Part shown: one piece after another, positions 3,283-6,017 of the stretch
Position numbering within the stretch: position 1 is the first letter of the stretch
How the letters are laid out: each line of letters begins with the position of its first letter
Assembly: GCA_017615235.1 (NCBI GenBank)
Contig: JAGAAM010000105.1
Location: 1-6,017 of the forward strand
From: Clostridia bacterium
GTDB taxonomy: Bacteria > Bacillota_A > Clostridia > Oscillospirales > CAG-382
Reading direction: 5' to 3'
Length of the DNA stretch: 6,017 nt
Made by a program: the position numbers and the translations under genes
The notes under the pieces: model-generated
Told to the model about the DNA's origin: nothing
Database searches by the model: none
Seen by the model: only the letters and a program-made list of their open reading frames with translations

Positions 3283-4758
3283 ATGACCGGAAAAGGGATA
3301 TACGGAGATATAGCGGCAAGGACGGGCGGAGATATTTACATCGGAGTAGTGGGGCCGGTACGCACCGGCAAATCGACGCTTATCAAACGATTCAGCGAAA
3401 ATATGATACTGCCGAACATCGAAGGGGATTTCCTGCGCGAACGCGCGAAGGACGAGATGCCCCAGTCGGCTTCCGGAAGGACGGTCATGACGACGGAACC
3501 GAAGTTCATCCCGGAAAACGCCGCCGAAGTGACGCTCGACGGCGATACGAAATGCCGGATACGCCTGGTCGACTGCGTGGGCTATATCGTCCCCGGAGCG
3601 ATGGGGCTTTCGGAGGACGGCGAACCGAGGATGGTCATGACTCCCTGGTCGGAAACTCCCCTGCCCTTCGAGGAAGCGGCGGAGACCGGGACGAAAAAGG
3701 TCATAACCGACCATTCGACCGTCGGTATAGTCGTCACCACCGACGGAAGCATAAGCGACATCCCGCGCGAAGCGTACATCGACGCGGAAAGCCGCGTTAT
3801 CAACGAACTTAAAGCGATCAGCAAGCCTTTCGTCGTGGTGCTGAACTGCCTTCAGCCGAATTCGCTGAGGTCGCGCGCGACCGCCGCGGAGCTTGAGGAA
3901 AAATTCAACGTCCCGGTAATGGCGATGAACTGCCGCGAGATGGGCGAAGCCGAGATCACGGATATTTTAAAAGGGATACTTTACGAATTCCCGGTAAGGG
4001 AGATAAGGTTCGCGCTGCCGAAGTGGATCGACGCGCTCGACGAAAGCGACGGGCTTAAAAAGCGGCTTTATTCCGAGGTGCGCGACAGCGTGAAAACCAT
4101 CCGCAGGGTCGGCGAGATACGCGACGCGGCGGCGGGATTCAAACAAAGCGACGGAATGAAAGCCGCGATGACTCTTTTAGACCTCGGCAAAGGCAGCGCG
4201 AGGATCGAAGTCACCGCGCCGGAAAGGCTTTTCTATTCGGTGCTGGGCGAAAAAAGCGGGTTCGAGATCGAAAACGAGCGCGAACTGTTCCGCATAATAA
4301 GCGAACTGGCGCAGACGAAGAAGAAATACGATAAAGTCGCCTCCGCGATCGACGACGTGATGAACGACGGTTACGGGATCGTCATGCCCTCGATAGACGA
4401 CCTTACTCTTGAAGAACCGGAGATAGTCAAACAGCCGGGCGGCTACGGAGTAAAGCTGAAAGCCAGCGCGCCTTCGATACACATGATGAAAGCGGATATC
4501 GAGACGGAAGTCAACCCGATAGTCGGCACCGAAAGCCAGTCGGAAGAACTGGTCAGCTTCCTTTTGAAAGAGTTCGAGGAAGACCCGAAGAAGATATGGG
4601 AGTCCAATATGTTCGGCAAAACTCTTCACGAGCTCGTCAGCGAAGGGCTCAACAGCAAGCTCGCGCATATGCCCGACGACGCCAGAACGAAGATCGCCGG
4701 GACGATAAAACGGATCATCAACGAGGGCAGCGGCGGTCTGATATGCATACTCTTGTGA
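3283..4758 (+). CDS. spoIVA: Stage IV sporulation protein A, coat-basement ATPase
   Basis: SpoIVA is made in the mother cell, binds the forespore surface and polymerises using ATP hydrolysis to form the platform for the spore coat. This copy is 491 aa, against about 492 in Bacillus subtilis, and looks complete. Visible features: conserved N-terminus AARTGGDIYIGVVGPVRTGK (11-30) containing Walker A GPVRTGKST with K30; sensor-type threonines T70 and T71 in TVMTTEPKF; Walker B RLVDCVGY (94-101, D97); a TPW-x4-PFEEAA stretch (120-133); HSTVGIVVTTDG (144-155). These sit at the same numbers I recall for the Bacillus protein. The C-terminal half includes APSIHM and VGTESQSEELV and ends INEGSGGLICILL, the hydrophobic tail typical of SpoIVA. 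The start is backed by GAGGA (3272-3276), 6 nt upstream. It is probably co-transcribed with the overlapping YmxH-like gene. I see no defect in any key residue. Confidence 0.97.
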   Translation: MTGKGIYGDIAARTGGDIYIGVVGPVRTGKSTLIKRFSENMILPNIEGDFLRERAKDEMPQSASGRTVMTTEPKFIPENAAEVTLDGDTKCRIRLVDCVGYIVPGAMGLSEDGEPRMVMTPWSETPLPFEEAAETGTKKVITDHSTVGIVVTTDGSISDIPREAYIDAESRVINELKAISKPFVVVLNCLQPNSLRSRATAAELEEKFNVPVMAMNCREMGEAEITDILKGILYEFPVREIRFALPKWIDALDESDGLKKRLYSEVRDSVKTIRRVGEIRDAAAGFKQSDGMKAAMTLLDLGKGSARIEVTAPERLFYSVLGEKSGFEIENERELFRIISELAQTKKKYDKVASAIDDVMNDGYGIVMPSIDDLTLEEPEIVKQPGGYGVKLKASAPSIHMMKADIETEVNPIVGTESQSEELVSFLLKEFEEDPKKIWESNMFGKTLHELVSEGLNSKLAHMPDDARTKIAGTIKRIINEGSGGLICILL

Positions 4759-5024
4759 CCGGCGCGCCTGAGAGCGCGACTCTTTCGGAGCTTTCAAAAA
4801 AGGAGGTCGTCAATATCAAGGACGCCTCGATGCTCGGAAGTATCTGCGATATGGAGATCGACGTGTTCAACGGAAACGTCAAGGCGATCATCCTTCCCGG
4901 CGGCGGGATGTTCGCCTCGCTCTCGCAGAAGAACCGTATAACGATACCCTGGCGCGACGTAGTCCGTATCGGCGACGACGCGATACTCGTAAAGTATTTT
5001 CCTCCGGACGAATGCGGGAAATAA
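4743..5024 (+). CDS. ymxH: YlmC/YmxH-family PRC-barrel sporulation protein
   Basis: A 93-aa protein of the small PRC-barrel-like YlmC/YmxH family, found in spore formers; the biochemical role is unknown. Recognised from LSELSKKEVVNIKDASMLGS (14-33), the acidic strand CDMEIDVFNGNVKAIILPG (35-53) and the closing IPWRDVVRIGDDAILV (68-83). The family core usually begins near LSEL, so the first 13 residues may be a short extension. The start is uncertain: ATG 4743 overlaps spoIVA by 16 nt, while GTG 4755 would overlap its TGA by a 3-base GTG/TGA junction; neither has a good ribosome binding site, which points to translational coupling with spoIVA. A strong AAAAAAGGAGGT (4795-4806) lies inside the gene but encodes the conserved KKEVV, with no start codon at working distance. 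The linkage with spoIVA supports a sporulation role. The symbol reflects family resemblance rather than proven orthology to Bacillus ymxH. Confidence 0.85.
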   Translation: MHTLVTGAPESATLSELSKKEVVNIKDASMLGSICDMEIDVFNGNVKAIILPGGGMFASLSQKNRITIPWRDVVRIGDDAILVKYFPPDECGK

Positions 5025-5031
5025 AAATCCT

Positions 5032-5118
5032 TGCGCGTAAGCGCATATCGATCCGCCGAAGGCGGAATATCGAAACTGCGAAGCCGTTATATCGGGTTTG
5101 CAAAGCAAACATCTCGAC
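5032..5118 (+). repeat. Array of four mini-hairpins with conserved ATATCGA-like linkers
   Basis: Eight bases after the ymxH stop come four small inverted repeats at about 20-22 nt spacing: TGCGC-GTAA-GCGCA (5032-5045), TCCGCC-GAA-GGCGGA (5052-5066), AACTGC-GAA-GCCGTT (5074-5088, one T/C mismatch) and GTTTGC-AAA-GCAAAC (5096-5110). Linkers are TATCGA (5046-5051), ATATCGA (5067-5073), ATATCGG (5089-5095) and a variant ATCTCGAC (5111-5118). Stem sequences differ completely while arm length, 3-4 nt loops and linkers are kept, which implies selection or copying at the structural level. The loops are C(GAA)G, C(AAA)G triloops and a GTAA tetraloop, all compatible with stable folding. The array lies in the 3' untranslated region of the spoIVA-ymxH transcript, just before its terminator. 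The function is unknown. Confidence 0.75.
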
Positions 5119-5148
5119 AAAAAAGGAAGGGCGGACCCTTCCTTTTTT
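5119..5148. terminator. Bidirectional rho-independent terminator
   Basis: A perfect 7-bp stem GGAAGGG/CCCTTCC (5125-5131 and 5136-5142) with loop CGGA is flanked by A6 (5119-5124) and T6 (5143-5148), so it terminates on both strands. It serves spoIVA-ymxH from the left and the LRR gene, whose stop is at 5164-5162, from the right. Confidence 0.92.
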
Positions 5149-5161
5149 ACGTTCTGTTCCG

Positions 5162-6017
5162 TCAGCTTCTGTGCCAGTAGAAATCGCTGTATGTGCTTGT
5201 TAAACACCTCGCCGCTATTGCAGGATCCGAAAGATCGGAAGAACTTAAATTCGTTCCGCTCGCCGCGGATGACGAAGTCGATACCCACCATCCGTTCGGG
5301 TTTGCAAACGTCACGCTTGTAAGCGAAGTGCAGCTTTCGAAAGCACTCTGGCCTATGCTCGTTACGCTTTTGCCGATCGTTATGCTTTTAAGCGAGGTAC
5401 AGTAGGAGAAAACTTGTGTGTCTATGCTCGTTACGCTGTCGGGGATCTCTATGCTTGTAAGCGAGGTGCAGTAGGAGAAAGCACTCGCACCAATGCTCGT
5501 TACACCGTTTCCGATCGTTACGTTTTCAAGCGACAGGCAGTTGTGGAAAGCATAATCGCCTATGCTCGTTACACCGTTGCCGATCGTTACGCTTTCAAGC
5601 AAGGGGCAGTATAAGAACGCACCTTCGCCTATGCTCGTTACGCCGTCGGGAATAACCATGCTTGTAAGCGAGGCGCAGTCGGAAAAAGCATATCCGCCTA
5701 TGCTCGTTACGCTGTCGGGGATAACCATGCTTGTAAGCGAGGTGCAGTCGCGGAAAGCGCCAAATGCGATGCAAAGCGTACCGCCTTTGATAGCATATGC
5801 TCCGGAAATATCATCTTTTGCTCTTATGAGATATTTATCGATATACAAAACGCCGTTTTCCCAGTTGCTTTCGTTGCTGTAATATAAAGTGTCTTCATAA
5901 GCTTGTCTGCCTATGCTTGTTACGCCGCTGCCGATCGTTATGCTTTCAAGCGAAGTGCAGCACCAGAAAGCTTCACTGCCTATGCTCGTTACGCTGTCGG
6001 GAATCGCTATGCTTGTA
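5162..6017 (-). CDS. BspA-like leucine-rich-repeat surface protein, 5' end beyond window
   Basis: The C-terminal 284 codons of a longer gene; the frame is open to the right edge (first full codon 6016-6014) and ends at TGA 5164-5162. It contains about nine BspA-type LRR_5 repeats of 23 residues with consensus SxTIPDSVTSIGxxAFxxCT, where alternate copies read TIGNGVTSIG. An island of about 35 residues near visible residues 38-72 (containing SNWENGVLYIDKYLI and ISGAYAIKGG) breaks the array; such islands are common in these proteins. The last 45 or so residues leave the repeat pattern: FANPNGWWVSTSSSAASG, a serine-rich stretch, then LTSTYSDFYWHRS at the very end. No LPxTG sorting signal or membrane anchor is visible at this end. 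BspA-like proteins are mostly secreted or surface exposed and bind host or microbial ligands; the role here is inferred. Starting at TTG 5848 would cut the repeat array, so that start is rejected. Confidence 0.88.
   Translation of the reverse strand, partial: TSIAIPDSVTSIGSEAFWCCTSLESITIGSGVTSIGRQAYEDTLYYSNESNWENGVLYIDKYLIRAKDDISGAYAIKGGTLCIAFGAFRDCTSLTSMVIPDSVTSIGGYAFSDCASLTSMVIPDGVTSIGEGAFLYCPLLESVTIGNGVTSIGDYAFHNCLSLENVTIGNGVTSIGASAFSYCTSLTSIEIPDSVTSIDTQVFSYCTSLKSITIGKSVTSIGQSAFESCTSLTSVTFANPNGWWVSTSSSAASGTNLSSSDLSDPAIAARCLTSTYSDFYWHRS
5354..5767 (-). repeat. Six tandem 69-bp repeats encoding LRR units
   Basis: The motif TATGCTCGTTAC, read on the plus strand, recurs at 5354, 5423, 5492 (as AATGCTCGTTAC), 5561, 5630 and 5699, exactly 69 nt apart, matching the 23-residue LRR period. 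Bases around the motif are nearly identical while the intervals vary, so the array could change copy number by slippage or recombination in frame. Confidence 0.85.
5912..6017 (-). repeat. Further 69-bp LRR repeats, running off the window
   Basis: Copies of the same repeat begin at 5912 (TATGCTTGTTAC) and 5981 (TATGCTCGTTAC), again 69 nt apart. The 144-nt gap between this block and the six-copy block is one degenerate repeat plus the non-LRR island. The second copy is cut by the window edge. Confidence 0.8.

Follow-up and report, generated by a model that had tools for sequence, protein, structure and literature searches.

The window analysed here, a stretch of 6,017 nucleotides from a Clostridia bacterium, carries an array of four mini-hairpins with a nearly constant short linker, and this array very probably is a member of a family of hairpin-array elements that recurs in related genomes. 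The best explanation, which we regard as probable, is that it represents the solo arm of a mobile element that is linked to genes of the S23/IVP family and resembles the Gut-1 RNA (RF01706).

Results

The four hairpins occupy positions 5032-5110, and their linkers begin at 5045, 5067 and 5089 (ATATCG in each case) and at 5111 (the outer ATCTCG), leading to a spacing of exactly 22 nt (Table 1). With four hairpins and four linkers the array is built like one half of the two-sided elements described below. Its outer end is followed by AC, a feature which it has in common with arrays of two related genomes (G031 and G023). On the plus strand the array lies 3' of ymxH, and on the minus strand directly behind the terminator-like hairpin of the BspA-type LRR gene.

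Table 1. Positions of the hairpins, linkers and neighbouring features in the window.
Feature	Positions	Strand	Description
PRC-barrel (YmxH-type) gene ymxH	4743..5024	+	upstream context; stop at 5024
Hairpin 1	5032..5045	+	TGCGC-GTAA-GCGCA, loop cGTAAg
Linker 1	5045..5050	+	ATATCG; first base doubles as final base of hairpin 1
Hairpin 2	5052..5066	+	TCCGCC-GAA-GGCGGA, loop cGAAg
Linker 2	5067..5072	+	ATATCG
Hairpin 3	5074..5088	+	AACTGC-GAA-GCCGTT, loop cGAAg; one T/C mismatch in the stem, fails the strict stem test
Linker 3	5089..5094	+	ATATCG
Hairpin 4	5096..5110	+	GTTTGC-AAA-GCAAAC
Outer linker	5111..5116	+	ATCTCG, one mismatch to ATATCG; then AC
Terminator-like hairpin with A run and T run	5119..5148		between the array and the end of the LRR gene
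BspA-type LRR gene	5162..6016	-	converges on the array; stop at 5162; open at window end

If a strict test is applied (arms of at least 5 bases, loop of 3-4 bases), three of the four hairpins pass. No other 87-nt stretch of the window is as dense in hairpins, and three strict hairpins were reached in one out of 3000 dinucleotide shuffles of this sequence. The preliminary description had placed a hairpin array beyond random expectation at this site, in a spoIVA-ymxH neighbourhood. The array and its excess over shuffled sequence are borne out, and Pfam agrees with spoIVA and the PRC-barrel gene as neighbours; all four proposed hairpin units are present, but the stem at 5074-5088 contains a mismatch. 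An origin of the array by chance was rejected in view of the recurrence in relatives and the paired stems reported below, together with the shuffle test. Neither a second inverted half nor an S23/IVP reading frame was found within the window, and the Rfam search of the array gave no match approaching any gathering score. In three relatives of ymxH (43-55% identity) a run of three linkers behind the gene was found in none.

To follow the arrays beyond the window we searched 197 genomes from one order (that of the genome of locus L002) with the linker pattern ATATCG-N12-18-ATATCG-N12-18-ATATCG and used the same pattern reversed as a control. The pattern is present in 43 of the 197 genomes compared to 3 of 197 for the reversed pattern. 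At least two matches occur in 24 genomes, with a maximum of 24 per genome, and part of the 43 genomes possesses a single match without hairpins in an apparently coding stretch. The recurrence in relatives that had been anticipated, as opposed to a local coincidence, is thereby confirmed.

Between the linkers of the loci analysed, 169 of 252 distinct segments pair perfectly (Watson-Crick, at least 4 bp) across at least 70% of their length. These 169 segments have 97 different 5' arms, and random re-pairing of the arms gives a match in 4.6%. A looser pairing score is reached by 182 of the 252 segments compared to 4.6% in shuffles. As the stems are mostly perfect and the arms are of many different sequences, pairing is kept while the sequence is free, in agreement with the earlier proposal that unit number and stem sequence vary under retained palindromy. 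Stem modules recur in many copies among the arrays.

Read on the ATATCG strand, 82 of the 169 stem segments have a cGNAg or cGNNAg loop, and none of the 169 has a cTN(N)Cg loop. The emphasis previously put on GCGAAGC-type loops thus finds support in the relatives. Loops of this type are reportedly exceptionally stable in single-stranded DNA, as is said to follow from work of Bevilacqua and colleagues and, for GCGAAGC, of Hirao. GNRA loops in RNA would suit part of the cGNAg/cGNNAg set as well. The linker spacing in relatives ranges from 18 to 27 nt with a mean of 22.2 nt. Because of this variation a strict helical phasing of the linkers is unlikely, and we rejected it. An outer linker ATATCG followed by A or C, read by eye, is frequent in relatives; that arrays always end in ATCTCGAC, as had been suggested, is not general.

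The common layout is CGATAT-hairpin-CGATAT, a centre, and ATATCG-hairpin-ATATCG, i.e. a pair of inverted halves. For 70 distinct half-arrays the sequence extends 400 b to either side; of these, 55 have a partner at a distance of up to 320 nt, 14 are solo, and one has a single opposite linker. The number of strict linkers per half is four in 56 out of 74 halves, and four or five in 70 out of 74 if one mismatch is allowed in the next linker. One half may be closed by a long stem (GATATAAATCC.../...GGATTTATATC). This closing stem reads GAGATAAATCC.../...GGATTTATCTC in L009 and L025 and GAGATAAATTCC.../...GGAATTTATCTC in L021, which is a two-sided change read directly.

Some variation of this layout was also observed. 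Most pairs that were read face apart, and some paired halves face each other with ATATCG inward (L031/L044, L037 and L046, in genomes G006 and G023). At the right ends of L054 and L055, ATATCG elements continue into arrays with an ATGAATT linker via a shared hairpin, as if two families had fused. L036 (G023) contains near-copies of a whole paired element at 4670-4953 and 6442-6702, 1.8 kb apart, with outer hairpins that are alike (AAATTTGTATCC..GGATACAAATT).

In G006 two inverted ATATCG arrays flank a small-protein gene (L047), and in G067 an ATATCG array precedes one (L021). Both proteins match the 23S_rRNA_IVP/S23 four-helix bundle family PF05635, with scores of 79.1 and 78.0 bits at a cut-off of 33.8 bits. 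The family was found in 20 of 21 array genomes examined. Among the genes read, an S23/IVP gene linked to ATATCG was not found in 14 of these 21, which may reflect incomplete genomes or remnant arrays. Among the matches listed, S23/IVP occurs in 22 of the 24 genomes with at least two array matches compared to 66 of the 173 others (p = 4e-7). Proteins with at least 63% identity to the ATATCG-flanked S23/IVP are confined, among the matches listed, to its own and four other genomes, and all of these genomes have ATATCG array matches as well.

The S23/IVP search of the 21 array genomes gave 68 matches, 62 of which lie in the 60 loci that were read (L056-L115) and six outside them (one with a stop, five short). 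Near these genes other constant linkers occur in arrays of the same build, namely CATCAT, CTTCAC, CTTCAT, AATTCA, ATTTCA, TTTAGC and TATAAC. At least four hairpins are found in the 300 b upstream of 39 out of 55 S23/IVP genes, compared to 5 out of 58 control ORFs of the same loci. In L066 a TATAAT-like box, read by eye, lies between the array and the gene. Downstream of the ATATCGA-linked S23/IVP gene of L109 we further note a lysine riboswitch aptamer (1978-2150, 81.8 bits).

Of 63 S23/IVP reading frames parsed, 57 entered a tree, whereas six fragments, including L113 of G067 next to an ATATCG array, were left out. The linker labels require 19 changes on this tree for 15 groups ("none" included) compared to a mean of 38.9 after shuffling, and a value as low as 19 was reached in 0 of 200 shuffles; the labels stem from a list of 14 linkers drawn up after viewing the loci and are thus not blind, and several loci are orthologous pairs (e.g. 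L068 and L083) and not independent. AATTCA, ATTTCA and CTTCAT are each placed on one side of a branch, and ATATCG requires two changes. CTTCAC requires four changes for five genes, a value as low as which is found in 57 of 500 shuffles, and 16 of the 57 genes carry no linker label. The linker tends to be specific to the S23/IVP lineage.

The architecture of the arrays is shared by Gut-1, which was catalogued in 2010 as a certain RNA that is not cis-regulatory, is found in the human gut only and is a noncoding RNA unaffiliated with mRNAs, according to the entries on it in PMC2864571. The window array possesses the minimum of three hairpins with a constant linker that characterizes Gut-1. In both, the hairpins are joined by a constant short linker, three of them in Gut-1, and some half-arrays that immediately precede S23/IVP genes are high-scoring Gut-1 matches. 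They differ in that the Gut-1 linker is (G)TGAAAT, whereas the window linker reads CGATAT on that strand, and in that the window array is without a Gut-1 match: neither a scan of the window (E <= 5) nor a search of 161 bases with the array gave one. Compared to the gathering cut-off of 50 bits, the ATATCG array of L013 scores 50.8 bits, and matches on or beside other ATATCG arrays score 31-43 bits. The preliminary view that the array fits no described pattern does not stand, given the equal architecture of this Rfam family.

Directly upstream of the gene, Gut-1 is above the cut-off in four of five ATTTCA-linked S23/IVP loci (L095 70.8, L089 63.5, L092 58.8 and L094 50.2 bits; none in L073). 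L095 contains a second match above the cut-off on the opposite strand, which corresponds to the other half. In total, Gut-1 matches occur in 81 of the 197 genomes, 68 of them over the cut-off. Scores reach 91 bits, and a single genome can have as many as 22 matches, which equals the number of candidates scored. Of the 14 genomes used as controls, that of E. coli has a match, and this is below the cut-off.

Among the matches listed, S23/IVP is found in 70 of the 81 Gut-1 genomes compared to 18 of the 116 others (p = 2e-24), and 11 of the 81 Gut-1 genomes are without an S23/IVP match. For the comparison of positions we drew on the first 150 listed matches of each family. For eleven of the 150 Gut-1 places the distance to a listed S23/IVP gene is at most 900 b, and ten of these precede the gene by 145-168 nt and share its strand. 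The remaining 139 lie farther from any listed S23/IVP gene and are either gene-less copies or copies whose gene lies outside the matches listed. Rfam's Gut-1 is a half-array of S23/IVP-type elements.

Evidence for movement comes from one intergenic site in three relatives. In G146 and G169 a 278-base stretch between two genes contains a complete ATATCG element and is identical at 277 of 278 positions, compared to 233 of 255 and 222 of 261 positions in the flanks (85-91%). In G106 the same site consists of 45 bases with a terminator-like hairpin and is without the cassette, while its flanks match those of G169 at 249 of 255 and 258 of 261 positions. The presence of the cassette thus differs between close relatives, and the cassette is more alike than its surroundings. 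Judged from these alignments, the empty site and the cassette identity indicate movement of the element, and they support the mobility suggested in the preliminary description. The identity could also result from an assembly chimera in G169, since its contig starts near the site. A target duplication was not seen at this single empty site, where the intergenic stretch itself differs.

Another presence/absence comparison among the relatives gave no clean empty site. An element is located behind tRNA-Trp in G050 and G006 and is absent there in G068 and G031; as the downstream sequence differs, this comparison is less clean than that with G106. Between the orthologous arrays of G050 and G006 (L083 and L145) one entire stem differs, as read by eye. 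Six hand-picked copies within G013 gave 11 aligned pieces of at least 90 b, nine of which are 91-98% identical and two 79 and 87%. The same genome contains a separate dispersed repeat of about 285 bp (L054 3487-3775, L128-L135), which in a search covering G013 alone occupies about 20 near-full places with 78-94% identity, plus partial ones. The copies read contain a 9-bp hairpin (CGCCGACAA-NGCC-TTGTCGGCG), and the repeat is not a linker array.

A tRNA gene lies within 500 b upstream of 22 out of 57 S23/IVP genes, which belong to several linkers other than ATATCG, a count into which the orthologous pairs mentioned above enter as well, and downstream in three loci. All 31 upstream tRNAs are co-directional with the S23/IVP gene. 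None of the six ATATCG-labelled S23/IVP genes was found behind a tRNA. A position near terminators, which had been put forward for the arrays, was observed for 5 of 76 ATATCG arrays compared to 4 of 74 controls. This is no enrichment, and terminator targeting as a rule for ATATCG arrays was rejected. Taken as a whole, the earlier interpretation is partly supported.

Discussion

The arrays could be regarded as structured non-coding RNAs, acting in trans or in a 3' UTR, with S23/IVP as a protein partner and an incidental spread. The listing of Gut-1 as a certain RNA that is not cis-regulatory, as stated in PMC2864571, and scores of up to 91 bits are in agreement with this. However, a genome can contain as many as 22 matches (equal to the number of candidates scored), one element is matched on both of its strands, the halves are paired and inverted, and one orthologous site is occupied or empty depending on the genome. 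Such features are not required of a single-function RNA gene, and we consider this explanation unlikely. Another possibility is that S23/IVP regulates itself by binding the arrays in its own 5' region, and that solo arrays are decayed and functionless. This appears improbable to us: while the arrays are found shortly before the gene, and linker and protein tend to go together, many arrays are without an adjoining S23/IVP gene (139 of the 150 listed Gut-1 places, among the listed genes), and the TATAAT-like box of L066 indicates that the array may be outside the mRNA.

Template switching, which turns imperfect palindromes into perfect ones, could keep the stems of a passive dispersed repeat whose fold has no function, and both the entire stem that differs between L083 and L145 and the recurrence of stem modules would be compatible with it. 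As it leaves the constant linkers, the loop polarity (82 compared to 0 out of 169), the four to five linkers per half and the tie to S23/IVP unexplained, we judge it very unlikely. A REP/RAYT- or IS200-type repeat moved by a Y1 transposase is very improbable, even though short dispersed intergenic hairpins with a loop type reportedly very stable in single-stranded DNA are reminiscent of it: the linked gene found is S23/IVP, and of the GTAG or CGTC tag that REP/RAYT palindromes bear according to PMC3733652, neither is present on either strand of window positions 5032-5118.

CRISPR arrays consist of identical repeats of about 20-40 nt and unique non-palindromic spacers. Here only about 6 nt are constant and it is the variable segments that form palindromes, which does not fit a CRISPR array. 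The S23-linked mobile element we favor resembles the S23p-encoding intervening sequences (IVS) within 23S rRNA genes, such as that of Coxiella, which are described in PMC4990558 as small elements with an S23/IVP gene, inverted repeats and short repeats (heptamers) upstream of the gene, and are called selfish there. The arrays differ from them in being intergenic, in having several copies per genome, in forming hairpin arrays and not one long stem, and in being gene-less in many cases; that of the window lies between ymxH and the LRR gene and not inside a 23S rRNA gene. MITE/REPIN repeats are likewise short, dispersed and intergenic, with inverted halves and presence or absence at an orthologous site. 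In contrast to these, the linked protein is no known transposase, the stems are not conserved in sequence, and a target duplication was not seen at the single empty site with its differing intergenic stretch.

A repeated short motif beside the S23/IVP gene may be a general rule, of which hairpin spacing is one form. Two S23/IVP genes outside the order (L164 from Treponema and L165 from a Nostoc plasmid) are flanked by short tandem repeats in inverted orientation that lack hairpins, those of Nostoc being of the ATTCGCA type. In two faecal contigs labelled as phage, hairpin arrays precede S23/IVP.

We know of no activity of S23/IVP proteins. The only solved relative found by a structure query (2RLD) has five chains, and the S23p of Xanthomonas is a homopentamer toroid, as cited in PMC4990558. 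A kinship of S23/IVP with Avd of diversity-generating retroelements, a homologous four-helix-bundle family, is reported in PMC10053308. We infer from this that S23/IVP could be a nucleic-acid-binding pentamer that reads the linkers; the four to five linkers of a half would be in keeping with five subunits.

A full element consists of two inverted half-arrays with four to five short fixed linkers each (ATATCG/CGATAT in the present case) and mini-hairpins of free sequence between them. In its autonomous form an S23/IVP gene (PF05635) directly adjoins the arrays, and the window array is probably a non-autonomous half. The following mechanism is proposed tentatively. The hairpins might fold in RNA or single-stranded DNA and serve as rigid spacers, so that the four to five linkers would be displayed single-stranded at a regular distance, where the pentameric S23/IVP could bind them in cis or in trans. 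The protein might then assist the copying of this folded strand to further intergenic positions, which in several lineages would lie behind tRNA genes. Possible routes for this putative copying are RNA with a reverse transcriptase acting in trans, or single-stranded DNA. Stems would drift and yet stay paired because the fold alone would matter.

Conclusions

The connection between the arrays, Gut-1 and S23/IVP appears to be new, Gut-1 and S23/IVP themselves being known names without a known function. Among the open-licence papers listed in our literature searches, no title or abstract opening connects hairpin arrays or Gut-1 with S23/IVP. The observations bring together a function-less protein family (S23/IVP, PF05635), an orphan RNA (Gut-1) and the dispersed hairpin arrays of Clostridia. 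It is conceivable, with chances slightly short of even, that S23/IVP and the arrays constitute an unrecognised class of mobile elements with a protein-to-linker code, in which a pentamer would read four to five copies of the linker specific to its lineage, presented on one strand between mini-hairpins that vary freely, and gene-less arrays and Gut-1 would be non-autonomous passengers. If this is true, S23/IVP would gain a nucleic-acid target accessible to bench tests with short oligonucleotides, and part of the catalogue of structured RNAs would become parts of mobile elements. The arrays would then provide an example of a structure that is kept while its sequence is free.
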